Assembly (NCBI RefSeq): GCF_025515205.1
Contig: NZ_JAOPFX010000003.1
Span: 248,001 to 312,000 of the forward strand
Source of the DNA: Microbacterium fluvii
Lineage (GTDB): Bacteria > Actinomycetota > Actinomycetes > Actinomycetales > Microbacteriaceae
DNA: 64,000 nucleotides
Direction of reading: 5' to 3'
Part shown: positions 4,370 through 19,711 of the stretch, in pieces
Layout of the letters: each line of letters starts with the position of its first letter
Numbering within the stretch: position 1 is the first letter of the stretch
The notes under the pieces: model-generated
What the model saw: only the letters and a program-made list of their open reading frames with translations
What the model was told of the DNA's origin: nothing
Database searches by the model: none
Position numbers and translations under genes: made by a program

Positions 4370-4993
4370 GTGACCGACATCACCGTCGCCCCCTCCCGTC
4401 GCCGAGAGACCACGAGGGCGAAGCTCTTCGAGGCGGCCGCACAGGTGTTCGCCGAGGTGGGGATGGACGCTGCCTCGGTCGAGATGATCTGCGATCGCGC
4501 GGGGTTCACCCGCGGGGCGTTCTACTCCAACTTCGAGTCCAAGGATCAGCTCTTCCTCGAGCTGATCACGCACATGACCGAGGCCAAGCTCGACGAGGTC
4601 GCCGTCCGCGTGCGGGCCATTGAGCCGGGCGAGATCGCCGACCCCGCCGCTCTCGTGCATCAGATCATCGGCGTCTCCGAAGGTGCGGGCATGGAGCCGC
4701 AGCTCGTCAGCGAGCTGCGCACGCAGGCGCTGCGCGATCCGCGGATGGCCGAGGCGTACCTCGCGTGGCACGACGGCATCATCGGCAGAGTCGAGCAGAT
4801 CATCGACGAGGTCACGGCGCTGCACCCCGTGCGCCTGCGCCTGACCGCGCCGCAGGCCGCGCGGCTGCTCGTCGACATCGCCGACGACACGTGCGTCCGA
4901 GCCGCCATCGAGGGGTGCTCGCGCGCTCAGACCGAAGAGCTGCTCAAAGAGCGTCTGCAGCAGATCGTCGTCGCCCTCGTCGACATCGGCTGA
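4370..4993 (+). CDS. TetR/AcrR family transcriptional regulator
   Basis: This 207-residue protein has an N-terminal TetR helix-turn-helix (SVEMICDRAGFTRGAFYSNF), followed by a variable ligand-binding half. The GTG at 4370 is preferred over the in-frame GTG at 4352 because a strong AGAGGAGAGG ribosome-binding site lies at 4357-4366, just upstream of it. The gene is divergent from the MMPL-YhgE operon, and two palindromes of TetR-operator size lie between them. It is therefore probably a local repressor released by a compound that the exporter handles. The inducer cannot be read from the sequence. Confidence 0.9.
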   Translation: MTDITVAPSRRRETTRAKLFEAAAQVFAEVGMDAASVEMICDRAGFTRGAFYSNFESKDQLFLELITHMTEAKLDEVAVRVRAIEPGEIADPAALVHQIIGVSEGAGMEPQLVSELRTQALRDPRMAEAYLAWHDGIIGRVEQIIDEVTALHPVRLRLTAPQAARLLVDIADDTCVRAAIEGCSRAQTEELLKERLQQIVVALVDIG

Positions 4994-4996
4994 GCA

Positions 4997-5989
4997 TCAG
5001 GCCCGTTCGAGCAGCGCGTGGCAGCGCGCGACCCGCTCGAACCACCACTGCGTGCGCTCGGCGTCAGCGGCCACGGCGTCCATCGCGGCGGGTTCGGGCT
5101 CGACCCGCCCGATCGGCAGCATCCCGTCTCGCGGTCGCAGCGGCGCGGCGGTCACGTCGGCGGTGAACAGCGCCGACGTGCCCAGCCCGCAGTCGAAGTC
5201 GAGCTCGGGCAGCGCGGCGGCCAAGGCGACCCCCATCGACAGTCCGATCGAGGTGTCCAGCGCGCTGGAGACGACCGCGGGAAGTCCCGCCTCGGCCACG
5301 ATCGCGAGTGCGCGGCGCACGCCGCCCAGGGGCTGCGCCTTGACCACGAGCAGATCGGCGGCCCCCGCCCGCGCGACGGCGAGGGGATCGGATGCCTTGC
5401 GCACGCTCTCGTCGGCGGCGATCGGGATGCCCATGTGCTTCACGCGGCGGCGGAGCTCGGCGAGTTCGTCGACGCTCGCGCAGGGCTGTTCGACGTATTC
5501 CAGATCGAACTCGGCGAGGGCGTGCACGGCGTGCTCGGCCTCGTCGAGGTTCCACCCGCCGTTCGCATCGACCCGCACGCGCCCCTCCGGACCCATCGCC
5601 GCGCGCACGGCGCGCAGCCGCGCGATGTCGTCGGCGAGGGACTGGCCGCGCTCTGCGACCTTGACCTTGGCGGTGCGGCAGCCGTCGAAGCGAGCGAGCA
5701 CCTCGGCGACGGATGCCGCCGGCACGGCCGGCACCGTCGCGTTCACCGCGATCGTCTCGCGCACGGCCGCCGGCTGCGCGCTCCAGCCGTAGTCGATCGC
5801 CGCGGCGAGCCACGTCGCAGCCTCGACGTCGTCGTATTCGGCGAAGGGCGAGAACTCGGTCCAGCCCTCCGATCCCTCGAAGACGACGGCCTCTCGCACG
5901 TCGACGCCGCGGAAACGGGTGGCCAGCGGCAGCGCGACCACTCGCGCGGAGGCGAGGATCTCGGAGAGCGGGGGGAGTGGTGCGGGCAC
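4997..5989 (-). CDS. menC: o-succinylbenzoate synthase
   Basis: This 330-residue enolase-superfamily enzyme dehydrates SHCHC to o-succinylbenzoate in menaquinone synthesis. Superfamily residues are visible in order: the KVK lysines in AKVKVAERG, the metal ligands in VDANGGW, YVEQPC and AADES, and the second catalytic lysine in VVKAQPLGG. The length is near 320, usual for actinobacterial MenC. The start is GTG and no good ribosome-binding site precedes it. The small gene upstream ends only four bases before the start, so translational coupling is likely. The other men genes lie 11-20 kb away on both strands, so menC is not in a classical men operon. Confidence 0.93.
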   Translation of the reverse strand: MPAPLPPLSEILASARVVALPLATRFRGVDVREAVVFEGSEGWTEFSPFAEYDDVEAATWLAAAIDYGWSAQPAAVRETIAVNATVPAVPAASVAEVLARFDGCRTAKVKVAERGQSLADDIARLRAVRAAMGPEGRVRVDANGGWNLDEAEHAVHALAEFDLEYVEQPCASVDELAELRRRVKHMGIPIAADESVRKASDPLAVARAGAADLLVVKAQPLGGVRRALAIVAEAGLPAVVSSALDTSIGLSMGVALAAALPELDFDCGLGTSALFTADVTAAPLRPRDGMLPIGRVEPEPAAMDAVAADAERTQWWFERVARCHALLERA

Positions 5990-7578: not shown

Positions 7579-8376
7579 ATGCCCCTTCTCGACACTCCGG
7601 TGCGCTTCGGCGTGCAGATTCAGCCCCAGCACTCCACCTATGCGCAGATCCGCGACGCGGTGCTGCGCATGGAAGAGCTCGGCGTCGACATCCTGTTCAA
7701 CTGGGATCACTTCTACCCGCTCTCGGGTGACCCCGACGGGCTGCACTTCGAGTCGTGGACGATGCTCGCGGCCTGGGCCGAGCAGACCGAGCGGGTGGAG
7801 TTCGGCGCCCTCGTCAACTGCAACAGCTACCGCAACGCGGACCTCCAGGCCGACATGGCCCGCACGATCGACCACATCTCGGCCAAGGGCGGCACGGGCC
7901 GGTTCATCTTCGGCACCGGGGCCGGCTGGTTCGAGCGCGACTACGACGAGTACGGCTACGAGTTCGGCACGCCGGGCTCGCGCCTGCGCGACCTCGAGCA
8001 GGGCCTCGCGCGCATCGAGACGCGGTGGGCGAAGCTCAACCCTGCTCCGACCCGCCGCATCCCGGTGCTGATCGGCGGCAAGGGCGAGCAGAAGACGCTG
8101 CGCCTGGTCGCGCGCCACGCCGACATCTGGCACAGCTTCGTCGGCCACGAAGAGCTGCCGCACAAGCTCGACGTCATCGCGAAGTGGGGCGAGACCGAGC
8201 AGCGTGACCTGTCGCAGCTCGTGATCTCGAACGAGCTCCAGGGCCGCGACGCGGCCTTCGCCGACGCCCTGTTCGACGGCGGCGTGCGGCTCTACACGCT
8301 CGGCATGAGCGGCCCCGACTTCGACTACGACCTCGTGCAGCGCTGGCTCGACTGGCGCGACGCCAAGAACGCGTGA
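7579..8376 (+). CDS. F420-dependent LLM-class oxidoreductase
   Basis: This 265-residue protein belongs to the luciferase-like (LLM) TIM-barrel family. It starts with a typical VRFGVQIQPQHSTYAQIRD strand, and the middle carries the GRFIFGTGAGWFERDYDEYG and IPVLIGGKGEQKTLRLVARHAD segments common to F420-using actinobacterial members. It probably transfers hydride between F420H2 or FMNH2 and an unknown substrate. A TAAGCT -10 box at 7567-7572 sits six bases before the ATG, so a leaderless transcript is possible; the GGAGGC in that gap could also act as a ribosome-binding site. The last four bases overlap the metH start (GTGA), so the two may be co-expressed. Confidence 0.88.
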   Translation: MPLLDTPVRFGVQIQPQHSTYAQIRDAVLRMEELGVDILFNWDHFYPLSGDPDGLHFESWTMLAAWAEQTERVEFGALVNCNSYRNADLQADMARTIDHISAKGGTGRFIFGTGAGWFERDYDEYGYEFGTPGSRLRDLEQGLARIETRWAKLNPAPTRRIPVLIGGKGEQKTLRLVARHADIWHSFVGHEELPHKLDVIAKWGETEQRDLSQLVISNELQGRDAAFADALFDGGVRLYTLGMSGPDFDYDLVQRWLDWRDAKNA

Positions 8377-11300
8377 CGGCCGTGCTGCGGCATCCGCTCG
8401 ACATCGCCGCGATCGCGCGCCCCGCCCGATCGGAGGCGCTGCTTCAGGCGCTCGCCGAGCGCGTCGTGATCGCCGACGGCGCGATGGGCACGATGCTGCA
8501 GCGGCACGATCCGACCCTCGACGACTACCAGCAGCTCGAGGGCTGCAACGAGATCCTCAACGTGTCGCGACCCGACATGATCGGCGAGATCCACGACGCC
8601 TACCTCGCCGTCGGCGTCGATGCCGTCGAGACCAACACGTTCGGGGCCAACTGGTCGAATCTGTCGGACTACGGCATCGACGACCGCATCGCCGAGCTCG
8701 CCGAGGCGGGCGCGCACATCGCCCGCGAGCGGGCGGAGGCCGCTGAGACGGCGGACGGGCGGATGCGGTGGGTGCTGGGTTCGATGGGTCCAGGCACCAA
8801 GCTGCCCTCGCTCGGGCACACGACCTACGAGCACCTCAAAGAGACCTTCGCGCTGCAGGCCGAGGGACTCATCGACGGCGGCGCCGACGCGTTCCTCGTC
8901 GAGACGAGCCAGGACCTGCTGCAGACGAAGGCGGCCGTCAACGGCTGCAAGCAGGCGATCGTCGCCCGCGGGGTGCGGCTGCCGATCTTCGTCGAGGTCA
9001 CCGTCGAGACCACGGGCACGATGCTCATGGGCTCAGAGATCGGCGCGGCGCTGACGGCGCTCGAGCCCCTCGGGGTCGACGCGATCGGTCTGAACTGCGC
9101 GACCGGGCCCGCCGAGATGAGCGAGCACCTGCGGCACCTCTCGCAGCATTCGCCCGTCACGATCGCGTGCATGCCCAACGCGGGGCTGCCGGTGCTGACC
9201 GCCGACGGCGCGCACTACCCGCTCTCGCCCGCCGAGCTCGCGACGGCGCACGAGCAGTTCGTCCGCGAGTTCGGCGTGGGCCTGGTCGGCGGATGCTGCG
9301 GCACGACGCCCGAGCACCTCGCTGCGGTCGTCGAACGGCTGCACGGCGGTGACGTTTCGTCTCGCGCCTACGGCGCTCGCTCAACGCCCGGGGGTGGGGA
9401 GCCGGGGGTCGCGTCGCTCTACCAGCACGTGTCGTTCGCGCAGGATGCGGCCTACCTCGCGATCGGCGAGCGCACGAACGCGAACGGCTCCAAGGCGTTC
9501 CGCGAGGCGATGCTCGATGAGCGCTGGGACGACTGCGTCGAGATCGCCCGCAACCAGATCCGCGTCGGGGCGCACCTGCTCGACGTGTGCGTCGACTACG
9601 TCGGCCGCGACGGTGTCGACGATGTGCGCGAGGTCGTCTCGCGGCTGGCCTCGGCATCCACTCTTCCCCTCGTGATCGACTCGACCGAGCCCGCCGTCAT
9701 CGGCGCGGGGCTCGCCCTCATCGGCGGGCGCCCCGTCGTCAACTCGGTCAACTACGAAGACGGCGATGGGCCGTCGAGCCGCTTCGGGCGCATCATGCCG
9801 CTGGTCAAAGAGCACGGCACGGCCGTCATCGCCCTGACGATCGACGAGCAGGGGCAGGCCCGCACCGCCGAAGACAAGCTGCGCATCGCCTCGCGGCTGG
9901 TCGACCAGCTCGTGGGCGAGTGGGGCATGCGCGTCGAGGACATCGTCGTCGACTGCCTGACCTTCCCGATCGCGACGGGCCAGGAAGAGACCCGCCGCGA
10001 CGGCATCGAGACGATCGAGGCGATCCGCGGGCTCGTCGCGAGATACCCCGGCATCAACACGACTCTCGGCGTCTCGAACGTGTCGTTCGGCCTCAACCCG
10101 GCCGCCCGCTCGGTGCTCAACTCGGTGTTCCTCAACGAGGCGCGCGAGGCGGGGCTGTCGTCGGCGATCGTGGATGCCGCCAAGATCGTGCCGCTCGCCT
10201 CCCTCCCCGACGAGCAGCGTCAGGTCGCGCTCGACCTCGTGTGGGACCGCCGCGAGTACGACGCCGACGGCAACCTCGTCTACGACCCGCTCGCCACGAT
10301 GCTCGACCTGTTCGCCGGGGTCGACACGGCGGCCCTGCGCGACCAGCGTGCGGCCGAGCTGGCCGCACTGCCGGTGGGTGAGCGCCTCGAGCGGCGCATC
10401 ATCGACGGCGAGCTCAAGGGTCTCGAGGCCGATCTCGACCTCGCCCGCGCCGGTGGGCTGAAGCCGCTCGAGATCATCAACGACCATCTGCTGGAGGGCA
10501 TGAAGGTCGTCGGCGAGCGCTTCGGCTCCGGCCAGATGCAGCTGCCCTTCGTGCTGCAGTCGGCGGAGGTCATGAAGACCGCCGTCGCCCTGCTCGAGCC
10601 GCACATGGAGAAGAGCGATTCGGCCGGCAAGGGCCGCATCGTGCTGGCGACCGTGCGCGGCGACGTGCACGACATCGGCAAGAATCTCGTCGACATCATC
10701 CTCACCAACAACGGCTACGAGGTGATCAACCTCGGCATCAAGCAGCCGATCGCCGACATCATCGCCGCTGCCGAAGAGCACGACGCCGATGTCATCGGCA
10801 TGAGCGGGCTGCTGGTCAAGTCCACGGTCGTCATGAAGGAGAACCTGCAGGAGCTGCAGTCCCGAGGGCTCGCGAAGCGCTGGCCGGTGCTGCTGGGCGG
10901 CGCAGCCCTCACCCGCGCCTACGTCGAAGACGACCTCGCGGGCCTGTTCGACGGCGAGGTGCGCTACGCGAAAGACGCCTTCGAGGGGCTGACGCTCATG
11001 GAGCCGCTCGTGCGCATCGCACGAGGCGAGGCGGCGGATGCCGTGGGCCTCCCGCCGCTGAAGAAGCGCATCCACCGAGCGGGCTCGCAGCTGACGCTCA
11101 CCGAGCCCGAGGCGATGCCGGCGCGCTCCGACGTGGCCGCCGACAACCCGGTGCCCGCACCGCCCTTCTGGGGCACCCGGATCGTGCGGGGGATCGCCCT
11201 GGCCGACTACGCCGCCTTCCTCGACGAGCGGGCGACCTTCATGGGTCAGTGGGGCCTCAAGCCCGGCCGCGGCGACGACGGCCTGTCGTACGAGCAGCTC

Positions 11301-12008
11301 GTCGAGACCGAGGGACGGCCTCGGCTGCGGTACTGGCTCGACCGGATCCTTTCGGAGGGCATGCTCGACGCATCCGTCGCCTACGGCTACTTCCCGGTGG
11401 TCTCCGACGGCGACGACCTCGTCGTGCTGCACCACGGCGACGACCCGTCGGGCGTGCTCGGGGTGCCGGGGCTGCTGGCCCCAGACGGCGGGTCGGGCGC
11501 GCTGGGCAGCGAGCGCCTGCGCTTCCACTTCCCGCGGCAGCGTCGCGACCGGCACCTGTGCCTGGCCGACTTCGTGCGCTCGCGCGACGCGGGGCAGGTC
11601 GACGTGCTGCCGGTGCAGCTGGTCACCGCGGGAGCCGCGATCGACGCCGTCACCGCGAAGCTCTTCGCCGAAGACAGGTACCGCGACTACTACGAGCTCA
11701 ACGGCCTCGTGATGCAGCTGACCGAGGCGCTCGCCGAGTTCTGGCACGCCCGCATCCGCTCGGAGCTCGGCTTCGCCGCCGAAGACCCGGCCGACACGGC
11801 GGGGCTGTTCAAGCTCGAGTACCGCGGTGCGCGCTTCTCGCTCGGTTACCCGGCGTGCCCCGACATGGAGGACCGCCGCAAGGTCGTCGGGCTGCTGCGC
11901 CCCGAGCGCATGGGCGTCGAGCTGAGCGAAGAGCTGCAGCTGCATCCCGAGCAGTCCACCGACGCGTTCGTCTTCCACCACCCCGAGGCGAAGTACTTCT
12001 CGGTCTGA
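8373..12008 (+). CDS. metH: Cobalamin-dependent methionine synthase
   Basis: This 1211-residue enzyme methylates homocysteine from methyltetrahydrofolate through cobalamin. All four modules are present: the homocysteine-binding barrel (residues about 20-325, zinc ligands in GLNCATG and GGCCGT), the folate-binding pterin domain (about 350-620), the cobalamin cap and Rossmann domain (about 665-890, with the lower ligand motif DVHDIGKN near 764), and the AdoMet reactivation domain (about 930-1205). The GTG start overlaps the preceding stop. The linker after the first barrel, residues about 326-344 (GDVSSRAYGARSTPGGGEPG), is encoded by a palindromic repeat also found in the ECF fusion gene 4 kb away. 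The frame stays intact, so the insertion appears tolerated. The requirement for B12 fits the possible vitamin transporter next door. Confidence 0.96.
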   Translation: MTAVLRHPLDIAAIARPARSEALLQALAERVVIADGAMGTMLQRHDPTLDDYQQLEGCNEILNVSRPDMIGEIHDAYLAVGVDAVETNTFGANWSNLSDYGIDDRIAELAEAGAHIARERAEAAETADGRMRWVLGSMGPGTKLPSLGHTTYEHLKETFALQAEGLIDGGADAFLVETSQDLLQTKAAVNGCKQAIVARGVRLPIFVEVTVETTGTMLMGSEIGAALTALEPLGVDAIGLNCATGPAEMSEHLRHLSQHSPVTIACMPNAGLPVLTADGAHYPLSPAELATAHEQFVREFGVGLVGGCCGTTPEHLAAVVERLHGGDVSSRAYGARSTPGGGEPGVASLYQHVSFAQDAAYLAIGERTNANGSKAFREAMLDERWDDCVEIARNQIRVGAHLLDVCVDYVGRDGVDDVREVVSRLASASTLPLVIDSTEPAVIGAGLALIGGRPVVNSVNYEDGDGPSSRFGRIMPLVKEHGTAVIALTIDEQGQARTAEDKLRIASRLVDQLVGEWGMRVEDIVVDCLTFPIATGQEETRRDGIETIEAIRGLVARYPGINTTLGVSNVSFGLNPAARSVLNSVFLNEAREAGLSSAIVDAAKIVPLASLPDEQRQVALDLVWDRREYDADGNLVYDPLATMLDLFAGVDTAALRDQRAAELAALPVGERLERRIIDGELKGLEADLDLARAGGLKPLEIINDHLLEGMKVVGERFGSGQMQLPFVLQSAEVMKTAVALLEPHMEKSDSAGKGRIVLATVRGDVHDIGKNLVDIILTNNGYEVINLGIKQPIADIIAAAEEHDADVIGMSGLLVKSTVVMKENLQELQSRGLAKRWPVLLGGAALTRAYVEDDLAGLFDGEVRYAKDAFEGLTLMEPLVRIARGEAADAVGLPPLKKRIHRAGSQLTLTEPEAMPARSDVAADNPVPAPPFWGTRIVRGIALADYAAFLDERATFMGQWGLKPGRGDDGLSYEQLVETEGRPRLRYWLDRILSEGMLDASVAYGYFPVVSDGDDLVVLHHGDDPSGVLGVPGLLAPDGGSGALGSERLRFHFPRQRRDRHLCLADFVRSRDAGQVDVLPVQLVTAGAAIDAVTAKLFAEDRYRDYYELNGLVMQLTEALAEFWHARIRSELGFAAEDPADTAGLFKLEYRGARFSLGYPACPDMEDRRKVVGLLRPERMGVELSEELQLHPEQSTDAFVFHHPEAKYFSV
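9351..9394. repeat. Palindromic repeat element captured inside metH
   Basis: The bases GTTTCGTCTCGC (from 9354) and GCTCGCTCAACGCCCGGGGG (ending 9394) flank a seven- to nine-base variable middle. The same two blocks occur at 13261-13426. The copy lies exactly in the linker between the homocysteine and folate domains of MetH and keeps the frame. It is probably a member of a dispersed lineage-specific repeat family. Confidence 0.8.
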
Positions 12009-12015
12009 GACCCGC

Positions 12016-12441
12016 TCAGGGCGACCAGCGCACCGCGGTGTCGCAGAAGACGGTCCCCGTGGCGGCGCGATCCTGCGCGCACGCGCCGTCGACGAGATCC
12101 CGGTCGCCGACGGATTCGGTGAGCACGACGTCGACGTCGACGACGTCGTTGCCCTGGCAGTCCGCCGCCTGGTCGCCGTTGGGCGCGGCATCCACCCGGA
12201 TGACGATGCGGTCGGGTTCATAGGCGATCACGGGCTCGAGCAGCTCACCGGTGACGCCGCTCGCGCATTCCAGGCGGCTCGCGCCGATCGTCAGCGAGGT
12301 GCTCGCCGAGGTCACCGCGGAGCGGAGCTCCCACGTGGCGGGGTCGCCCTCGGTCGTGCTGCACGCCGTGCACACCCCGACAGCCAGGATCGCGAAGAGC
12401 AGTGCGCAGGGCCGGCGGAGGTCGATGCGCGTGGCGGGCAT
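12016..12441 (-). CDS. Putative secreted lipoprotein of unknown function
   Basis: This is a 141-residue protein with a basic N-terminus, a hydrophobic core (ALLFAILAVGV) and a candidate lipobox cysteine at residue 27 (CTAC; the -3 residue is unusual). The mature part is acidic and has six cysteines, counting the lipobox one, that could form disulfides outside the cell. No known domain is recognised. A TAGGGT hexamer (12448-12453) ends six bases from the ATG, predicting a leaderless mRNA. The gene is convergent with metH, with seven bases between the stops, and directly downstream of the ECF fusion gene on the same strand. Confidence 0.75.
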   Translation of the reverse strand: MPATRIDLRRPCALLFAILAVGVCTACSTTEGDPATWELRSAVTSASTSLTIGASRLECASGVTGELLEPVIAYEPDRIVIRVDAAPNGDQAADCQGNDVVDVDVVLTESVGDRDLVDGACAQDRAATGTVFCDTAVRWSP

Positions 12442-12450
12442 GGCCCGACC

Positions 12451-15400
12451 CTACGGCCGATGCGACGCGGTCGCCAGGACTGTGTGGTCCGGTTCCACGG
12501 CGGATGCCGGCGCCACCGGCTTCGCCCGGCGCAGCGCCGCGAGCACGGGGCGGCCGACCACGATGAGGCCGATGACCGTCGTGACGGCGCGAAGGGTGTC
12601 CCAGGTGAGCGTGGAGGTCACGAGGGAGTAGACGAGGAAGTTCGCGAGGTTCTCGCCGACAGATCCGCCGGGGACGTAGGAGATGCTCGTGTCGGCGCCC
12701 ACCGCGAACGGCCAGAACCACATGTTCATGATGAGGCCGAACGCGTACGAGCCGACCACGCCGTAGGCGCACAGCATCCCGATCTCCGCCCAGCCCCGCA
12801 CGCGTCGGGGGAGCAGTCCCGCACCGGCGCCGATCCAGCCGCACGCGAACATCTGGAACGGCAGCCACGGACCGACTCCGCCCCAGACGACCGCCGACAG
12901 CAGGATGGATGCCGCACCCACCAGCAGCCCGAAGCGCGGGCCGTAGGCACGGCCGGCCAGGATCAGCAGCACGAACAGCGCCTCGACCCCGCCGACGCCG
13001 GTGCCGACGATGCGGATGGCCGCGCCGATCGCGGCCAGCACGGCCAGAAGGGCGAGGGTGTGCGCCGAGCGCACCGAGCCGTCGAGAAGGGCGAGCACCA
13101 GCACGACGGCCACGGGTGCGAGCGCGAGGGCGATGTAGGGCACGGCGGCGTGCGCCTGCGCCGGAACCGCGATCGCGACGAGGGGCCACAGGAAGGCGGT
13201 GGCTGCCGCGAGGTTCGCCGCGACGAGGGCGAGGGTGCGCCAGGAGGGGCGTGCGGGTCGCGACGTTTCGTCTCGCTGCGCTCGGGAGGCGTCCGGACGT
13301 GGCGACGTCTCGTCTCGCTGCGCTCGCTCAACGCCCGGGGGTTGCGTTTCGTCTCGCTGCGCTCGGGAGGTGCCCGACTTGTGCTCCCCGGGCGTTGAGC
13401 GAGGAGCGAAGCGACGAGACGAAACGTGCTGTGCCTGCTCCACGACCCCGCCCTCGATCGGCAGCACGCGATCCGCGAGAGCCGCGGCGAGTTCCGCTTC
13501 GTGCGTGGCGAGCACGACGGCGGTCCCCGCATCCGCCTGCGCGACGATCGACCCCGCGACCAGGTCGCGCGCGGCCGCGTCGAGCCCGCGCGTCGGCTCG
13601 TCGATCAGCAGCACGCGGGGCAGGTGCGCCGTCTGCAGCGCGATCGCGAGGCACCGACGCTCGCCGACCGAGAGATCGCGCGGATGCTGTGCGAGCCGCC
13701 GCGCGAACCCGGCGCCGTGCGGGTCGAGGCCGAGCAGGGCTGCGAAGCGCTCCGCAGTGTCGGGCACCGAGGCGCCTCCCGCAAGCGCGCCTCGACGGGC
13801 ACCTCTACCGCTGCCGGTGCCGCGGGGTGCGACCCGGTGGGCGCTGCGGGCGGCGCGATCGGCGTGCCGGCACTCGGCGGCGACCGTGTCGCGCACGAAC
13901 AGGTCGTCGGAGGCATCGGGCACGAGCGCGATCGCCCGATCACGCCAGTCTGCGCGCCGGCCGCCGACCTGCACGGCGTCATCGCTGTCGGCGAGGGCGA
14001 TCGCGGCCAGCAGGCTCGACTTGCCGGCGCCGTTGGGCCCGGTCAGGGCGACGATCTGGCCGGCGTTCACCGCCAGCGCGGCATCCGCGACCGCGACGGT
14101 GTCGCCGTGGCGCACCGTGAGGCCGCGCACCTCGAGCACCGCCCGGGCCGTCGCGGCCGCCGAGGCGGCCGCAGTCTCGCCCTCGGCGCGTCCATTACTC
14201 CTCCTGGTCGATGCCGCGGAGGGCCATTCGGTCCGGATCGGGCCGCTCGCCCCGGTCTCAGGAGGAGTTGTGTCCGCCCCGAGCTCTGAGACCGAGTCCG
14301 CACGCACCACCCCTTCCGAAATGAGCAGCACCTCGTCGGCGATCCCGGCGAGCGCCGCCGTGCGGTGCTCGGCCACCACGACGCACATGCCGGCCTCGTG
14401 CGCGAGGGCGTCGAGCAGCGCCACGATACGGGCGCGGGCGGCGATGTCGAGGTCGGCCAGCGGCTCGTCGACCAGCAGCAGGATCGGCTGCTCCACGATC
14501 GCCGCCGCGATTGCGACGAGAGTCGCCTGACCCGCCGACAGCCCCCGAACGGGCCTGTCGAGCAGCTCGACGATCCCGACCCGCTCGGCGACCTCGGCCA
14601 CGCGCGCCTCGGCGATCACCGGCGCGACTCCTCGCAGCTCCAGCGCGAGCCCGACCTCGTCGCGCACCCGCTCCGTCGCGAACGCGTCGCGCGGATGCTG
14701 CAGCACGACCCCGACCGTGCGCGACGTGTCGCGGGGCGGCACCGTCTGGCGGTCGAGCCCGACCACCCGCATCCGTCCGGTCAGCCACCCGCCGTCCACT
14801 TGCGAGTGCAGCCCCGCGAGGGCGCGCAGCAGCGTCGACTTGCCCGAGCCGGTGGGGCCGGCCAGCAGCACCAGGCGGCCGGTGCCGAGCGACACGTCGT
14901 CGACCGCCACGGTCGGTGACGCGGCGAACCCCGCCGACACCCCCCGCAGCTCCACGGGGTGGTCGCAGTCGCCCTCGCGCGCGCTGCCGGCGTAGCCGCG
15001 CAGCTCGAGGGCCGCGGCCACCGCGGTCGCGCGCTCGAGCGTGCGCTCCAGCACCGGCGCGAGCACGCGCACCCCGCCCCGCTCGCCGCGCAGCCGCCGC
15101 GCGAAGCGTGCCGAGCGCACGGCGTCGGCGAGAGCGGGCAGGGTCGCCCAGGCGATCGACAGCATCCGCGCGACGCCGCGCAGCGGCCCCCGCCGCGCGC
15201 CGCGCGCGATGAGCCGCGGCACGTCGACCAGCGCGTTGAGCACCCCGAACGCGAGGATCGTCGCGGCGATCGGCACGGCGCTGACCGCCGCCGTCCACAC
15301 GCCGTCCAGCGTCGCGGGCCCGAGCAGCTCGACATGCGCGAACGGTGCGGGCAGGCGCAGCACCGGCATCGGCAGCAGCACGAGTCCGCCGCCGTCGGCT

Positions 15401-15492
15401 CCGTGGAACAGCACCCGGTAGACGACCCGCACGACGATGAAGCCCGCCGCCAGCGCGGCGGCGGGCTTCAGTGCCGAGGGGCGCAGGCTCAT
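12451..15492 (-). CDS. Single-chain ECF-type vitamin transporter (EcfT-EcfA-EcfA-EcfS fusion)
   Basis: One 1013-residue protein appears to hold a whole energy-coupling-factor importer. Residues 1-165 resemble EcfT (membrane helices and the arginine-rich coupling segment ARFARRLRGERGG). Residues 178-400 are a first ATPase (Walker A GPTGSGKST, Q-loop LQHP, signature LSAGQ, Walker B LLLVDEPLADLD, H-loop AEHR). Residues 451-690 are a second ATPase (TGPNGAGKSS, LSVGE, VLLIDEPTRGLD, ATHE). Residues 749-990 are a six-helix substrate-binding membrane module with GPWLPFQMFACGWIGAGAG. The linker at 688-748 is built from dispersed repeats. The start is the ATG at 15492, which overlaps the end of the lipoprotein gene by four bases. 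Substrate is not proven; the DUF4430-like partner and metH nearby suggest a cobalamin-type compound. Confidence 0.85.
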   Translation of the reverse strand: MSLRPSALKPAAALAAGFIVVRVVYRVLFHGADGGGLVLLPMPVLRLPAPFAHVELLGPATLDGVWTAAVSAVPIAATILAFGVLNALVDVPRLIARGARRGPLRGVARMLSIAWATLPALADAVRSARFARRLRGERGGVRVLAPVLERTLERATAVAAALELRGYAGSAREGDCDHPVELRGVSAGFAASPTVAVDDVSLGTGRLVLLAGPTGSGKSTLLRALAGLHSQVDGGWLTGRMRVVGLDRQTVPPRDTSRTVGVVLQHPRDAFATERVRDEVGLALELRGVAPVIAEARVAEVAERVGIVELLDRPVRGLSAGQATLVAIAAAIVEQPILLLVDEPLADLDIAARARIVALLDALAHEAGMCVVVAEHRTAALAGIADEVLLISEGVVRADSVSELGADTTPPETGASGPIRTEWPSAASTRRSNGRAEGETAAASAAATARAVLEVRGLTVRHGDTVAVADAALAVNAGQIVALTGPNGAGKSSLLAAIALADSDDAVQVGGRRADWRDRAIALVPDASDDLFVRDTVAAECRHADRAARSAHRVAPRGTGSGRGARRGALAGGASVPDTAERFAALLGLDPHGAGFARRLAQHPRDLSVGERRCLAIALQTAHLPRVLLIDEPTRGLDAAARDLVAGSIVAQADAGTAVVLATHEAELAAALADRVLPIEGGVVEQAQHVSSRRFAPRSTPGEHKSGTSRAQRDETQPPGVERAQRDETSPRPDASRAQRDETSRPARPSWRTLALVAANLAAATAFLWPLVAIAVPAQAHAAVPYIALALAPVAVVLVLALLDGSVRSAHTLALLAVLAAIGAAIRIVGTGVGGVEALFVLLILAGRAYGPRFGLLVGAASILLSAVVWGGVGPWLPFQMFACGWIGAGAGLLPRRVRGWAEIGMLCAYGVVGSYAFGLIMNMWFWPFAVGADTSISYVPGGSVGENLANFLVYSLVTSTLTWDTLRAVTTVIGLIVVGRPVLAALRRAKPVAPASAVEPDHTVLATASHRP
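13261..13426. repeat. Cluster of palindromic repeats encoding the ECF linker
   Basis: Three direct copies of a GTTTCGTCTCGCTGCGCTCG-type unit (13265-13284, 13307-13326, 13346-13365) are followed by an inverted copy (13386-13426). CAACGCCCGGGG near 13329-13340 and CCCCGGGCGTTG at 13387-13398 are reverse complements. The block lies inside the ECF fusion gene, remains in frame, and is translated on the minus strand into repeated RAQRDET peptides between the second ATPase and the S module. Confidence 0.85.
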
Positions 15493-16034
15493 GACGCGGG
15501 GGCTGCGGGCTCCCCGTCGAGGGTGAACAGCAGCTCGAGGCTGTCGCCGGGCTCGACCTGCAGCGTCGACAGGCCCTCTTCGGCATAGCCCCACTCGCCG
15601 CCCGCGGGCTTGACCCACAGCGACCAGTAGGCGAAGGCGGCCGGCATCGAGGCGCACTCCTCGACATAGGCGGGATCTTCCGTCGAGCCCACCGGCTCGG
15701 TCGCCGACGGCAGGCCGTTCACGCGGCAGACCACCTGGTCGCCGTACTCGTCGGTGCCCTCGGTCTCGACGCCGGTCGCGGCAAGCACGTCGGCGGCGGC
15801 GATCGTCGCCTCGGCGGGCACGCAGTACTGGGCGTCCGCTCCGCCGGCCAGAGCCGACGAATCGACGACGAAGGTCACGCCCTCGTCGCCCGCGCAGGGG
15901 GCGCTGGTCGGAGCGGCGGTCTCTTCGGCGGCGCTGCTGCCCGGCTGGGCCGTCGTGGTCGAAGAGCACGCGGCGAGACTGAGGGCGAGCGCCGCGGCGG
16001 CGGCGAGGGCGAGGATGCGGGGCGTCGAAGTCAC
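15489..16034 (-). CDS. DUF4430/transcobalamin-C-like lipoprotein
   Basis: This is a 181-residue lipoprotein with a signal peptide ending in the lipobox LAAC (Cys23), a threonine/serine/alanine-rich spacer, and a globular part. The C-terminal half (WSLWVKPAGGEWGYAEEGLSTLQVEPGDSLELLF) matches the pattern of DUF4430, a domain related to the C-terminal part of transcobalamin that is often found next to ECF transporters. The GTG at 16034 is chosen because a TACGCT -10 hexamer at 16041-16046 ends six bases before it, predicting a leaderless mRNA. The stop overlaps the ECF fusion start by four bases, so the two form an operon. It is likely a surface capture protein for that importer; this role is inferred. 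Confidence 0.75.
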   Translation of the reverse strand: MTSTPRILALAAAAALALSLAACSSTTTAQPGSSAAEETAAPTSAPCAGDEGVTFVVDSSALAGGADAQYCVPAEATIAAADVLAATGVETEGTDEYGDQVVCRVNGLPSATEPVGSTEDPAYVEECASMPAAFAYWSLWVKPAGGEWGYAEEGLSTLQVEPGDSLELLFTLDGEPAAPAS

Positions 16035-16099: not shown

Positions 16100-17002
16100 G
16101 TGAGCGTATCCGAGCTGTTCGACCCGTCCGAATGGGTGCTCGCGCCCGGCGCCGAGGCCTTCACCGACATCACGGCGCACGTCTCGCCCGATGGGCGCAT
16201 CGCCCGCATCGCGTTCGACCGCCCCGAGGTGCGCAACGCCTTCCGCCCGCACACCGTCGACGAGCTGTATCGGGCGCTCGATGCCGCCAGGCAGGACACG
16301 AGGATCGGCGTCGTGCTGCTCACCGGCAACGGTCCGAGCCCGAAAGACGGCGGCTGGGCGTTCTGCTCGGGCGGCGACCAGCGCATCCGCGGGCGCGACG
16401 GCTACAAGTACAGCGACGACGAGGCATCCGTCGCCGATCCCGGCCGGGCGGGGCGCCTGCACATCCTCGAGGTGCAGCGACTCATCCGCTTCATGCCCAA
16501 GGTCGTCATCGCCGTGATCCCCGGGTGGGCGGCAGGGGGCGGGCACTCGCTGCACGTCGTGTGCGACCTATCGATCGCGAGCGCCGAGCACGGCCGGTTC
16601 AAGCAGACCGACGCGGATGTCGGCTCGTTCGACGCCGGCTACGGCTCGGCCTACATGGCGCGCCAGGTCGGGCAGAAGTTCGCACGCGAGGTCTTCTTCC
16701 TCGCCGAGGAGTATTCCGCCCAGCGCGCCTACGAGATGGGCGCCGTCAACCGCGTCGTGCCGCACGCCGACCTCGAGCGCGAGGCGATCGCGATGGCGCG
16801 CACGATCCTGACGAAGTCGCCCACGGCGATCCGCATGCTGAAGTTCGCCTTCAACGCCGTCGACGACGGCCTGGTGGGCCAGCAGGTGTTCGCCGGCGAG
16901 GCCACCCGCCTCGCGTACGGAACCGATGAGGCCGTCGAGGGGCGCGATGCGTTCCTCCAGAAGCGGGAGCCGGACTGGTCGGCGTCGCCCTGGCTGTACT
17001 GA
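16100..17002 (+). CDS. menB: 1,4-dihydroxy-2-naphthoyl-CoA synthase
   Basis: This 300-residue crotonase-fold enzyme closes the second ring of menaquinone from o-succinylbenzoyl-CoA. The diagnostic MenB segment GGWAFCSGGDQRIRGRDGY is present, with the oxyanion-hole glycines near GWAAGGGHSLH and the aspartate/tyrosine pair in FDAGYGSAYMARQVG. A TAGGCT -10 box (16088-16093) ends six bases before the GTG start, so the mRNA is probably leaderless. It is divergent from the lipoprotein-ECF operon with about 65 bases between starts. menE begins two bases after its stop, so the two are co-transcribed. Confidence 0.95.
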   Translation: MSVSELFDPSEWVLAPGAEAFTDITAHVSPDGRIARIAFDRPEVRNAFRPHTVDELYRALDAARQDTRIGVVLLTGNGPSPKDGGWAFCSGGDQRIRGRDGYKYSDDEASVADPGRAGRLHILEVQRLIRFMPKVVIAVIPGWAAGGGHSLHVVCDLSIASAEHGRFKQTDADVGSFDAGYGSAYMARQVGQKFAREVFFLAEEYSAQRAYEMGAVNRVVPHADLEREAIAMARTILTKSPTAIRMLKFAFNAVDDGLVGQQVFAGEATRLAYGTDEAVEGRDAFLQKREPDWSASPWLY

Positions 17003-17003
17003 C

Positions 17004-18155
17004 ATGAAGCTCGAGCCCCTCATCGGCGACGACCCGCGCGACGTGCTGCGGGGTCTGCGCGGCGCGCTGCACGGCGCCGGCCCTGCGCTGGCGCTGGGGG
17101 CTGCGGGGGAGCCGCCCGCCGCGGAGGTCGCCGGCGGCACGGCGGTGGTCGTCACCACGAGCGGCTCCACCGGCATCCCCAAGAGCGTCGTGCTCAGCCG
17201 CGACGCGCTCACCTCCAGCGCCATGGCGACGGCTGCCCGCATCGGCGACGGGGCGTGGCTGCTGGCGCTGCCGGCGACCTACGTCGCGGGACTGCAGGTG
17301 CTCGTGCGCTCGCTCGTCGCCGGCCGCGAGCCCTCGATCCTCGCCGGTTCGTTCTCGCCGGCCGCCTTCGCGGCGGCGGCGAACGGCATGGCCTCGAGCG
17401 TCGGCGGTCAGCGGGTGCCCGCCTACACCTCGCTCGTGCCCGCGCAGCTGGTGAAGCTGCTCGATGCGGCCGATCACGACGCCGACGTGCGCCGCGCGCT
17501 CACCTCGTTCGCGGCGATCCTCGTCGGCGGGCAGGCGCTGCCGCCCGCCGTGCGCGAGCGTGCCGACGCGGCGGGCGTGCGCATCGTGCGCACCTACGGC
17601 TCGACCGAGACCAGCGGCGGCTGCGTCTACGACGGCCGCCCGCTCGACACCGTGCGCATGCGTGTCGTCGACGGCGAGCTGCAGATCGGCGGCCCGACCC
17701 TGGCCGACGGCTACCTCGGCGACGCCGAGCTCACCGACCGCGTCTTCGTGCGCGACGAGGGGCGCTGGTACCGCACCGGCGACGCGGCGCTCATCGACGA
17801 CGGGATGCTGCGCATCCACGGCCGCATCGACAACGTCATCGTCTCGGGGGGCATCAACATCTCGCTCGACCGCGTCGAGCAGGCGGTGCGCGCGATCCCG
17901 GGCCTCGCCCAGGCCGTCGTCGTCGGGGTCGATGATCCGACCTGGGGGGAGGCCTCGGTCGTCGTCGCGCCGCGCGGCGAGGCGCTGCGCCGCAGCGAGG
18001 CCGAGCAGCTCGACCACGCCCGCGCCGCCGTCTCGCAGGCCGTCGGTCCGCACGCGCGCCCGTCGCGGCTCGTGCTCGTCGACGAGCTGCCGGTGCTGCC
18101 CAGTGGCAAGCCCGACCGTGAGGCGATCCGCCGCGCGGTCGCCGCACTGCACTGA
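17004..18155 (+). CDS. menE: o-succinylbenzoate-CoA ligase
   Basis: This 383-residue adenylate-forming enzyme activates o-succinylbenzoate with ATP and CoA, making the MenB substrate. The family P-loop TTSGSTGIPKSV is at residues about 49-60, and the A-motifs RTYGSTETSGG and YRTGDAALIDDGMLRIHGRIDN are clear. The C-terminal lysine of the mobile domain is in LPSGKPDREAIRR. The protein is shorter than the Escherichia coli form but near the usual size in actinobacteria. The start is the ATG two bases after the menB stop; an upstream extension overlapping menB is not used. Confidence 0.94.
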   Translation: MKLEPLIGDDPRDVLRGLRGALHGAGPALALGAAGEPPAAEVAGGTAVVVTTSGSTGIPKSVVLSRDALTSSAMATAARIGDGAWLLALPATYVAGLQVLVRSLVAGREPSILAGSFSPAAFAAAANGMASSVGGQRVPAYTSLVPAQLVKLLDAADHDADVRRALTSFAAILVGGQALPPAVRERADAAGVRIVRTYGSTETSGGCVYDGRPLDTVRMRVVDGELQIGGPTLADGYLGDAELTDRVFVRDEGRWYRTGDAALIDDGMLRIHGRIDNVIVSGGINISLDRVEQAVRAIPGLAQAVVVGVDDPTWGEASVVVAPRGEALRRSEAEQLDHARAAVSQAVGPHARPSRLVLVDELPVLPSGKPDREAIRRAVAALH

Positions 18156-18159
18156 CCCA

Positions 18160-18207
18160 CAGCATCCGCCCCGCCCTCTCCCGCAGCATCCGCCCCTCCC
18201 TCTCCCG
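18160..18207. repeat. 24-base tandem duplication
   Basis: Two copies of a 24-base unit beginning CAGCATCCGCCCC and ending CCCTCTCCCG lie head to tail at 18160-18183 and 18184-18207 with a single G/T difference. They directly follow menE and abut the large inverted repeat. Confidence 0.8.
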
Positions 18208-18271
18208 CAACTTGGCACCTGCTGTCGCTCAGCGGCGCCCGCATGCGGCGACAGCCGCCAAGTTGCGGAGG
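18202..18271. repeat. Long imperfect palindrome between convergent genes
   Basis: CCGCAACTTGGC (18205-18216) pairs with GCCAAGTTGCGG (18257-18268), and inside it CTGTCGC (18222-18228) pairs with GCGACAG (18248-18254). The whole can form a 65-70-base hairpin between menE and the convergent VOC gene. It looks like a dispersed REP-type element and may also stop transcription from both sides. Confidence 0.75.
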
Positions 18272-18279
18272 AGAGAAGG

Positions 18280-18663
18280 TCAGGCGGCGGTGTCGGCGGC
18301 GGTGTCGACGACGCAGAAGCGGTTGCCCTCGGTGTCTTCGAGCACGACCCAGTCGGCATCCTCCGGATAGCCGTGCCAGTCCACTTCGCGCGCCCCCAGC
18401 GCGAGCAGTCGAGTGACCTCCGCCGCCTGATCGTCGGCATAGAGATCGAGATGGATGCGGGGAGGATAGGCCTGCGGATACCCCGTCACCGAGAGGGCCA
18501 CGCTCGCCCCAGGCGCATCCCAGTGCTCCTTGTAGGGCGGGTCGAGGATCACCCAGTCCCCGCTCGGCTCGCCGCGGTTCACGTAGCCCAGCGCCGCGCG
18601 CCAGAACTCGCCGGCCCGCGCGATGTCTTCGACCGTCAGCACGATGGTTCCGATGCTCAGCAT
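18280..18663 (-). CDS. VOC (glyoxalase/bleomycin-resistance fold) family protein
   Basis: This 127-residue protein starts with the typical VOC strand MLSIGTIVLTVEDIARAGEFW and has the second half-module HLDLYADDQAAEVTRLLALGA followed by VVLEDTEGNRFCVV. Potential metal ligands are the histidine of RIHLDLYA and the glutamate of LEDTEGN. The ATG at 18663 follows a G-run usable as a ribosome-binding site; a longer upstream frame is not supported. The family includes enzymes, antibiotic-binding proteins and sensors, so no reaction can be given. It lies between menE and menA but is on the opposite strand. Confidence 0.82.
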   Translation of the reverse strand: MLSIGTIVLTVEDIARAGEFWRAALGYVNRGEPSGDWVILDPPYKEHWDAPGASVALSVTGYPQAYPPRIHLDLYADDQAAEVTRLLALGAREVDWHGYPEDADWVVLEDTEGNRFCVVDTAADTAA

Positions 18664-18733
18664 CCCCCCATTGTCGAGGGCGACGCGCGCCGGGAACACC
18701 CCCTCATCGGCGGGCCGACTAGGATCGCCAGTC

Positions 18734-19711
18734 GTGGCGACGCAGAGCAAGAAGCGCAAGAACCCGGCCCCCCGCAAGGCCTCCACCGGCGGCAATCCCG
18801 CGCGGCCCAAGCAGCACGGCGACCCCCGTCACGTGCAGAAGGCGACGCTCGGCGACTGGATCGGCGCCGCGCGGCTGCGCACGCTGCCGCTGGCGGTCAC
18901 CCCCGTCGTCATCGGCACGGGCGCCGCGCACGTGGTCGATGTGAGCTTCCACTGGGTCATCGCGCTGTGCTGCCTCATCGTGGCCGTGGCGCTGCAGATC
19001 GGCGTCAACTACGCCAACGACTACAGCGACGGCATCCGCGGCACCGACGACCACCGCGTGGGTCCCGCGCGCCTCACCGCGAGCCGCAAGGCGAAGCCTC
19101 GCACGGTGCTCACGGTCGCCCTCGTCTTCTTCGCGCTCGCCGCAGTGACGGGGCTCGCGATCGTCATCCGCACGGGGCAGTGGTGGATGCTGCTGGTCGG
19201 GGCTGCGAGCATCGTCGCCGCCTGGTTCTACACGGGCGGCAAGCGCCCCTACGGCTACGCGGGTCTGGGAGAGGTCTTCGTCTTCGTCTTCTTCGGACTC
19301 GTGGCGACCCTCGGCACGACCTGGGTGCAGGCCTTCGCGCTGCCGCAGGAGGCGTGGCTCGGCGCCGTCGCGGCGGGCCTGTTCGCCTGCGCCGTGCTGC
19401 TGGCCAACAACCTGCGCGACATCGAGCAGGACAGAGCGGCCGGCAAGCGCACGCTGTCGGTGCTGATCGGCCGCCGCGCCACCCAGGTGCTGTTCACCGT
19501 GTTCGTCCTGGTGCCGTTCGCGATCGGCGTGATGCTGGCGCTGTTCTACCCGATCGCCTGGCTCACGCTGCTGGCGCTGCTGGGCGCACTGCCGGCGATC
19601 CTCATCGTCTGGACCTACCGCCAGCCGCGCGAGCTCGTCGTCGCGCTCGGCGTGACCTCGCTCACGTCGTTGGCCTACGGCCTGCTGCTGGCCTGGGCGT
19701 ACTTCGGCTGA
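18734..19711 (+). CDS. menA: 1,4-dihydroxy-2-naphthoate polyprenyltransferase
   Basis: This 325-residue integral membrane UbiA-family enzyme attaches the polyprenyl tail to DHNA, giving demethylmenaquinone. The first aspartate-rich motif NYANDYSDGIRGTDDHR and the second, NNLRDIEQDRAAGKRTL, bind the diphosphate through magnesium, and about eight to nine membrane helices are visible. The N-terminal 45 residues are basic and proline-rich, longer than in many homologues. The GTG at 18734 is chosen because TAGGAT (18720-18725) lies eight bases before it, suggesting a near-leaderless mRNA. The prenyl donor is probably made by the polyprenyl synthase at 26 kb. Confidence 0.94.
   Translation: MATQSKKRKNPAPRKASTGGNPARPKQHGDPRHVQKATLGDWIGAARLRTLPLAVTPVVIGTGAAHVVDVSFHWVIALCCLIVAVALQIGVNYANDYSDGIRGTDDHRVGPARLTASRKAKPRTVLTVALVFFALAAVTGLAIVIRTGQWWMLLVGAASIVAAWFYTGGKRPYGYAGLGEVFVFVFFGLVATLGTTWVQAFALPQEAWLGAVAAGLFACAVLLANNLRDIEQDRAAGKRTLSVLIGRRATQVLFTVFVLVPFAIGVMLALFYPIAWLTLLALLGALPAILIVWTYRQPRELVVALGVTSLTSLAYGLLLAWAYFG

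Follow-up and report, generated by a model that had tools for sequence, protein, structure and literature searches.

The window that we analysed, a 64,000-nucleotide stretch of the Microbacterium fluvii genome, carries on its minus strand an open reading frame without an internal stop (12451..15492) that encodes a predicted single-chain ECF importer of 1013 residues, T-A1-A2-S. The module order proposed in the earlier note was borne out, in that a CbiQ-type region, two PF00005 stretches and an ECF S part were all found. The lipoprotein gene (181 residues; 15489..16034, minus strand; GTG start at 16034, stop ending at 15489) lies immediately upstream, and it does overlap the fusion gene: the two share the 4 nucleotides ATGA (15489..15492, minus strand), in which the first gene stops and the second starts, an arrangement that suggests translational coupling. 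On the plus strand, metH, encoding the B12-dependent methionine synthase (8373..12008; TIGR02082, 1325.5 bits against a cut-off of 1010.85), converges on the fusion gene as had been described, but it is not directly adjacent, because a 141-residue open reading frame (12016..12441, minus strand) separates the two. MetH is the probable consumer of the imported cofactor.

Could such a long frame have arisen from a sequencing error, or from chance openness in GC-rich DNA? We surveyed 79 loci spanning the module set, taken from the best 80 of 175 matches together with the window. All four modules occur in one open frame at 74 of these loci, in several genera, counting L081, whose contig ends within S. 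Both explanations can therefore be set aside, and the search for further four-module fusions that had been proposed was amply answered. The five broken or split loci are L036, L043 and L086, which we took to be frameshifts, and L067 (also recovered as L174 of G442) and L084, which, with L173 (G367), were counted as three-gene forms in the tree described below. The upstream lipoprotein gene is present at 79/79 loci, and the 4-nucleotide overlap was found at 59 of them, a script having taken as fusion start the candidate closest to the end of the lipoprotein gene.

The T module (residues 1-176; 14965..15492, minus strand) is reduced, as judged by its CbiQ match, the helices of the AF2 model and hydropathy. 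The CbiQ family PF02361 matched residues 59-169 of the fusion marginally, scoring 25.2 bits (cut-off 25) there and 25.6 bits when the genome was scanned; the unfused T protein of a relative (L150) scored 37.9 bits. The model places helices at residues 5-30, 62-88, 105-135 and 141-164, and together with hydropathy it indicates two clear membrane segments and one borderline segment, followed by coupling helices. The two clear segments were present in all 74 fused sequences and the third rose above the threshold in 36; on a stricter hydropathy scale, residues 67-85 formed the sole segment that passed. T components of the ECF class have 4-8 membrane helices in the table of PMC8386196, compared with the two clear and one borderline counted here. 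T was reduced to about 178 residues in the course of the stepwise fusion, a comparison in which the starts of unfused T proteins were chosen by script for a front overhang nearest 55 residues, so that front overhangs and total lengths, but not rear overhangs, are partly assumed.

The two ATPase modules, A1 (residues 177-405; 14278..14964) and A2 (residues 449-690; 13423..14148), both on the minus strand, correspond to the two PF00005 stretches (E = 8e-40), and A1 matches EcfA/CbiO, among other ABC ATPases, in structure. The pair carries Walker A, signature and Walker B motifs, and the motif census, which excluded 6 of 28 four-gene rows in which the pattern matched at most one Walker A motif, found the Walker B sequence DEP in both A1 and A2 of all 28 fused rows. 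According to the same census, the Q-loop Gln of the second ATPase was replaced by Asp or Glu during the stepwise fusion; in A2 of the window, Asp526 occupies this position and is invariant in a 21-row alignment. The A1-A2 linker (residues 406-448; 14149..14277, minus strand) is modelled with low confidence and contains the inverted repeat ACTCCTCCT / AGGAGGAGT. We considered whether this repeat, which comes with an out-of-frame AGGAGGAGTAATG, might be left over from a time when the genes were separate; the stretch AGGAGGAGTAATGG, searched for with as many as 2 mismatches allowed, has no further copy within the window. The A2-S linker (residues 691-754; 13231..13422, minus strand), of mostly low model confidence, holds three copies of a dispersed repeat (13265-13284, 13307-13326 and 13346-13365), and its length ranges from 39 to 253 residues (median 49) among 74 relatives.

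The last module (residues 755-992; 12517..13230, minus strand), recognised from PF12822, the model helices and alignment A3, appears to be an ECF S component, on the evidence of modest Pfam scores. Scanned alone, it passes the PF12822 cut-off of 30.7 with 32.6 bits; the whole fusion scores 29.0, under that cut-off, and the unfused S protein of L150 scores 34.6. The claim that the final 240 or so residues form an S component is thus supported for the window, but among relatives only 6/30 S modules matched PF12822 at E≤0.01; 9/30 matched the riboflavin-type family PF07155 at the same threshold. Alignment A5 was used solely for the C-terminal anchors of relatives. The structure prediction that had been suggested placed helices throughout the S region, with low confidence at residues 751-800 (mean pLDDT of 45-53 per block). 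ABC ATPases and their like filled the list in a fold search with the whole fusion, and an S profile searched against PDB sequences gave no match to CbrT or any other solved S component and a single match at chance level. One cysteine of the module, C884, is conserved across the T-A-A/T-A-A-S clade (37 of 38 rows), and any part for it in B12 binding is speculative.

The lipoprotein has the motif LAAC, which we take to be a lipobox (Cys23); Cys23 and Leu20 are invariant among 21 aligned lipoprotein sequences. In its AF2 model (pLDDT 84.0, pTM 0.74), a transcobalamin beta-domain fold spans about residues 50-174. The best Foldseek match was the beta domain of human transcobalamin, 5no0 (E = 9.7e-3, probability 1.00), in a search whose E-values reached about 1e-2 only. 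VIA-align gave Z scores of 9.7-10.5 against transcobalamin, intrinsic factor, haptocorrin and the bacterial structure 3u7z, compared with 5.7 for the next unrelated fold, and the modelled protein thus shares the fold of these beta domains; it differs from the three carriers named first in being small, bacterial and devoid of an alpha domain. The transcobalamin-like half of the original description was therefore upheld on the fold, but its DUF4430 label was not: no Pfam match to DUF4430 was listed at E≤10 for the lipoprotein and 20 relatives, in a search whose HMMER filters drop most matches above about 0.1, and none was found in four unfused beta-like proteins (L150, L148, L159 and L161). A separate alpha-alpha toroid protein is encoded in the operons of some relatives.

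How did four modules come to share one chain? The fusion is not confined to the M. fluvii genome but marks the last of the steps by which the genes of an ordinary operon were joined, and comparison of the gene arrangements supports the order LIP,T,AA,S to LIP,TAA,S to LIP,TAAS. We built a quick, midpoint-rooted tree of 66 rows: 25 fused loci, the window among them, from the 74 with an open frame; 38 of 40 regions (L167 and L172, with modules missing, were omitted); and the 3 split cases. In this tree, three-gene forms occur within the fused clade. Elsewhere in the order and phylum, among 18 loci chosen for their long S frames, S lies in the ATPase frame in four (L203, L204, L206 and L215); no T was detected in these four, two of which (L203 and L206) could accommodate a diverged T. 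The long frames of the remaining 14 were rejected as fusions and are due to chance. A title and abstract search of the open-licence literature returned no report of a T-A-A-S fusion or of a transcobalamin-like ECF partner, and earlier notice is possible.

What does the transporter carry? The proposed cobalamin or corrinoid substrate gained strong support from four lines of evidence. First, the S module occurs in 44 of 197 Microbacterium genomes, and metH, at the curated cut-off, occurs in exactly the same 44 and in none of the 153 others, a count that ignores phylogeny. Both genes lie on one contig in 43 of the 44 and are convergent in 43/43; because they are neighbours, their co-occurrence does not represent independent gain and loss. 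Across genera, metH was found in the stretch at 60 of 81 loci (some of the 21 lacking it have little downstream sequence), beside 7/7 three-gene relatives and near only 2/28 four-gene operons. The neighbours on the MenB side were also considered as a clue to the substrate and ruled out, being present at 30/81 loci and in Microbacteriaceae only. Second, the corrin-ring gene cbiC was found in 0/44 genomes with the S module, in a search whose control was positive in 7 of 14 genomes, and the host cells appear incapable of making corrin rings. Third, the lipoprotein is predicted to have the fold of a transcobalamin beta domain. Fourth, of 28 relatives with the four-gene arrangement, 10 have a cobalamin riboswitch upstream on the same strand and 18 have none; none was found in the window, nor in 11 related loci, of which 10 are fused, nor in 4 loci of the three-gene form. 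On these grounds, we consider it very probable that the importer carries cobalamin or a related corrinoid. We think it rather unlikely that an incomplete corrinoid or lower-ligand precursor (cobinamide, alpha-ribazole) is carried instead of cobalamin: hosts without cbiC would salvage such compounds, and the fold and riboswitch evidence does not distinguish among corrinoids, but the perfect pairing with metH is most simply explained by delivery of the complete cofactor.

Assembly of the putative cobalamin importer from a single chain is suggested by the open frame. The fused frame might yield separate chains, by an internal start or by linker cleavage, that work as ordinary subunits; the long A2-S linker of low model confidence and the three-gene forms within the fused clade are consistent with this, as is the presence in 59 of 74 fused genes of a candidate start codon, ATG or GTG in frame, after A2 and before the first S helix; in 4 of these genes a Shine-Dalgarno-like stretch precedes it. 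We regard this as improbable, because 15/74 genes have no such codon (TTG was not counted in either figure), 70/74 have no Shine-Dalgarno-like stretch ahead of one, and the frame is conserved despite very different linkers. Least plausible of all is another MetH-linked cargo (folate, methionine or a precursor), with the metH link reflecting methionine metabolism, since the metH neighbour and weak NCBIfam folate-type S component matches (11/30 S modules at E≤1, best 0.01) are opposed by the transcobalamin-beta lipoprotein, the cobalamin riboswitches of relatives and the finding of no other riboswitch class at threshold in the loci scanned.

We thus consider it highly likely, from the sequence evidence, that the locus encodes a dedicated ECF-type cobalamin (corrinoid) importer, made as a single polypeptide, and its lipoprotein partner. 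In operation, the lipoprotein, on the external face of the membrane, would capture B12 and pass it on to S; the ATP used by A1 and A2 would drive the reduced T module, tilting S and freeing B12 inside, where it would supply MetH in a cell that apparently lacks corrin-ring synthesis. With the linker holding it to A2, S could undock locally at most and could not be swapped for another S component. A more detailed picture is offered tentatively, as less likely than not. In it, a natural single-chain ECF importer cycles without S release. Its minimal T would have two or three membrane segments, and one ATP site would be remodelled, with Gln replaced by Asp/Glu in the A2 Q-loop and LSGG by LSAG in the A1 signature. 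A surface-anchored half-transcobalamin would load it, and the ancestral operon would have encoded a split bacterial transcobalamin in full, as an alpha toroid and a beta domain.

ECF-CbrT, described as the cobalamin transporter of Lactobacillus delbrueckii (PMC5997447), resembles this predicted importer in its ECF components (T, two A and S) and in the proposed substrate. As described there, CbrT is one of several S components that use a separate common module (group II), whereas here a dedicated S is part of one chain, a transcobalamin-beta lipoprotein is added, and S had no sequence match to CbrT in the PDB profile search, though the two may be distant homologues. In group I ECF systems, such as the cobalt transporter and BioMNY, the energising module is described as dedicated to one S component (PMC12075633, PMC10368641). 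The present family is alike in this trait, its S being in the same chain or, in relatives, in the same gene cluster, and A1 matches CbiO-type as well as EcfA ATPases. The parts of group I systems are described as separate subunits or with A1 and A2 fused to each other (PMC6828968), whereas the chain found here also includes T and S. BtuM is described as a six-helix membrane B12 carrier with a conserved Cys as cobalt ligand, hypothesised by its authors to act alone without an ECF module (PMC6072759); C884 may be likened to that Cys by description only.

The fused genes and their close three-gene relatives with a free S form a natural matched pair, and a tethered S in a probable B12 transporter provides a natural test of the need for S release in ECF transport. 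The fused family also bears on the minimum size of a working T domain. In Microbacterium, Arthrobacter and their kin, the fusion together with metH is a candidate marker of B12 acquisition.

The fusion is real and conserved. The earlier note had described an ECF transporter with T, A, A and S modules in one polypeptide, an overlapping lipoprotein gene upstream and the gene for B12-dependent methionine synthase as its convergent neighbour, and all three observations were confirmed. On the minus strand, a stop-free ORF of 1013 residues (15492..12451) encodes, by Pfam, a CbiQ-type T (residues 59-169), two ABC ATPases (A1 and A2) and an ECF S, in that order. The lipoprotein gene (181 residues, 16034..15489, minus strand) overlaps it by ATGA, and metH (8373-12008, plus strand) passes its curated model. 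Scanned alone, the S part scores 32.6 bits against PF12822 (cut-off 30.7), and the whole fusion protein scores 29.0, under the cut-off; at E<=0.01, matches to PF12822 are limited to 6 of 30 S modules, and matches to the riboflavin-type PF07155 to 9 of 30. Between the fusion and metH lies an orphan lipoprotein-like ORF of 141 amino acids (12441..12016, minus strand), for which Pfam gives no match at E<=1 and which nothing in the 80 loci compared (the best 80 of 175 relatives) matches at E<=1e-8. Adjoining the 181-residue lipoprotein gene, and divergent from it, are, by eye, menB-, menE- and menA-like genes (16100-19711, plus strand), the first with relatives in 30 of 81 loci (the best 80 of 175 plus the window). 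Three more CbiQ-type T stretches, all higher-scoring, occur in the window's genome (G000:C4:260412, C2:291757 and C1:1614449).

When genome contigs were scanned for the S module, 175 relatives were found, of which the best 80 loci were taken together with the window; 79 of these 81 stretches span the module set, the remaining two being cut contigs. T, A1, A2 and S form a single open frame in 74 of the 79, including one (L081) that leaves its contig within S, and this answers the objection that the fusion might be split by a sequencing error. The lipoprotein gene is directly upstream in 79/79 loci, with the 4-nt overlap in 59/79 when the start closest to the lipoprotein stop is chosen by script. 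Genera with relatives among the best 80 include Microbacterium, Agromyces, Leifsonia, Arthrobacter and Pseudarthrobacter. Median identity to the window in that set is 0.62 for T, 0.56 for A1, 0.51 for A2 and 0.70 for S, and the linkers are highly variable in length (8-66 residues for A1-A2, 39-253 for A2-S). One contig with metH and a Microbacterium-like S module (L089) is titled Stenotrophomonas maltophilia and is probably contamination. In the window, three copies of the 20-base form of a dispersed repeat, AGCGCAGCGAGACGAAAC (17 exact genome sites, 0 in a reversed control), one copy mismatched, lie at 13265-13365 within the translated A2-S linker, where the element seems to have grown. The A1-A2 linker (14149-14277) contains an inverted repeat, ACTCCTCCT/AGGAGGAGT, and after it an ATG in another frame, which resembles a leftover gene start.

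The fusion belongs to a known class of transporter, of which it is a derived form. S relatives turned up in 79 of 297 genomes of the order and in 140 of 396 of the phylum, many of the latter being weak matches that may belong to other S families. Among 40 regions read, 38 had both T and S: 28 in which separate genes encode T, AA and S (four-gene loci), seven with TAA joined and S separate (three-gene) and three with all four modules joined (TAAS). The beta-domain model found its gene in all three-gene and TAAS regions and in some but not all four-gene loci. In a quick tree of 66 rows, a single branch (SH-aLRT 100) sets all 28 four-gene rows apart; among the remaining rows TAAS needs five changes, at least four of them forced by well-supported branches, so S was joined or freed more than once. 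Arthrobacter and Pseudarthrobacter rows are nested among Microbacterium rows, which suggests that the cassette passed between genera by transfer. In two genomes of the genus (G367 and G442) the S frame differs from the TAA frame, and in a distant family (f56: L203, L204, L206, L215) a single open frame spans A1, A2 and S, with T undetected, apparently a separate fusion event. No earlier description of a T-A-A-S fusion was found in a search of an open-licence library whose coverage leaves out two main papers on ECF transporters, from 2009 and 2011.

Several changes accompanied fusion. Unfused T is a long protein (median 367.5 residues, n=28), with a rear extension of ~150 residues bearing four predicted segments in each and a front extension of ~55 residues with 0-2, a front figure partly assumed since starts were picked by script for an overhang of that length; the start of the L149 T is plainly uncertain, and in the L150 T the Pfam CbiQ match begins at residue 12. 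Fused T retains only the middle portion, with two clear membrane segments in 74/74 and a third above threshold in 36/74 (best 80 of 175 plus the window), or one segment on a stricter scale; a published table gives 4-8 helices for T components of this ECF class (PMC8386196). In the motif census (22 unfused rows; 6 of the 28 dropped), the A2 Q-loop is VPQ in 18, VPA in three and VPD in one, and is VPD or VPE in 28/28 TAAS and 10/10 three-gene rows. At the A1 signature, 17/22 unfused rows read LSGG and all 38 fused rows of both types read LSAG. These two elements are parts of one composite ATP site, and that site therefore looks remodelled in the fused clade. Cys884 of the S module is present in 37/38 fused-clade rows versus 3/28 unfused rows; BtuM uses a Cys to bind B12, according to PMC6072759, and a like role for Cys884 is speculation.

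The lipoprotein had been called DUF4430-like, with a transcobalamin-C-like domain. The fold stands: its model (pLDDT 84.0) has a transcobalamin beta domain, 5no0, as its top Foldseek match (E 9.7e-3, prob 1.00), and the first 15 VIA-align rows are transcobalamin, intrinsic factor, haptocorrin and bacterial 3u7z (Z 9.7-10.5), the next row dropping to Z 5.7. As for DUF4430, no sequence match to it was listed among 21 family members.

Five lines of evidence point to B12 as the substrate and support the earlier note's cobalamin or corrinoid reading: the lipoprotein fold, metH co-occurrence, metH adjacency, the absence of cbiC and the riboswitches of relatives. Both the S module and a MetH above the curated cut-off occur in 44 of 197 genomes of the genus, and they are the same 44; 50 further genomes have only partial, sub-cut-off MetH matches. 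Forty-three of the pairs share a contig, all convergent and 8-6060 bp apart, and the other is on separate contigs. An earlier, overlapping sample of 39 genomes gave nine with S and the same nine with metH. Because the genes are linked and ancestry is shared, these co-occurrences are not independent events, and the counts are uncorrected for phylogeny. metH is a conserved neighbour, near 60 of 81 loci (best 80 of 175 plus the window), and near 7/7 three-gene versus 2/28 four-gene loci. The corrin-ring gene cbiC (PF02570) was found in 0/44 S-module genomes, with the control positive in 7/14 reference genomes.

Of the 28 four-gene loci, all scanned, 10 have a cobalamin riboswitch (RF00174 or RF01689) upstream, on the same strand as the operon; none was found in the window, in the four three-gene loci scanned (of seven) or in 11 related loci, 10 of them fused. 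In three loci (L143, by eye, L146 and L148) a beta-domain gene directly follows it. In five others (L150, L158-L161) it leads a gene for a secreted alpha-alpha toroid protein and then one for a transcobalamin-beta-like protein, and the pair may be a bacterial transcobalamin split in two; a five-row toroid profile matches squalene-hopene-cyclase-like chains over part of the length (best E 1.1e-20), and the L150 protein as a single query gave nothing significant. In the last two, L164 (about 11628-12467, minus strand) and L165 (about 4464-5228, plus strand), the following gene encodes a secreted protein unrecognised by the beta-domain model; by eye, it has beta-domain-like segments in swapped order, a possible circular permutation.

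The modules and partner genes of an importer are there; for hand-over, direction and substrate, we infer the following course. Most likely, the lipoprotein would take up B12 at the cell surface and hand it to S, the two ATPases would set the coupling helices of T in motion and tilt S, and the imported B12 would end at MetH. Over the A2-S linker the confidence of the predicted model is very low (mean pLDDT 30-37 per block, residues 701-750), which fits a flexible tether, so that S may be able to move but not to leave. PMC10368641 suggests that in group I transporters the separation of S may be limited, and the authors of PMC12075633 state that their own data give no formal proof that S release is essential. 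With the first observation confirmed and its interpretation supported, the case is stronger than before, and the fused importer bears on whether ECF transporters must release S.
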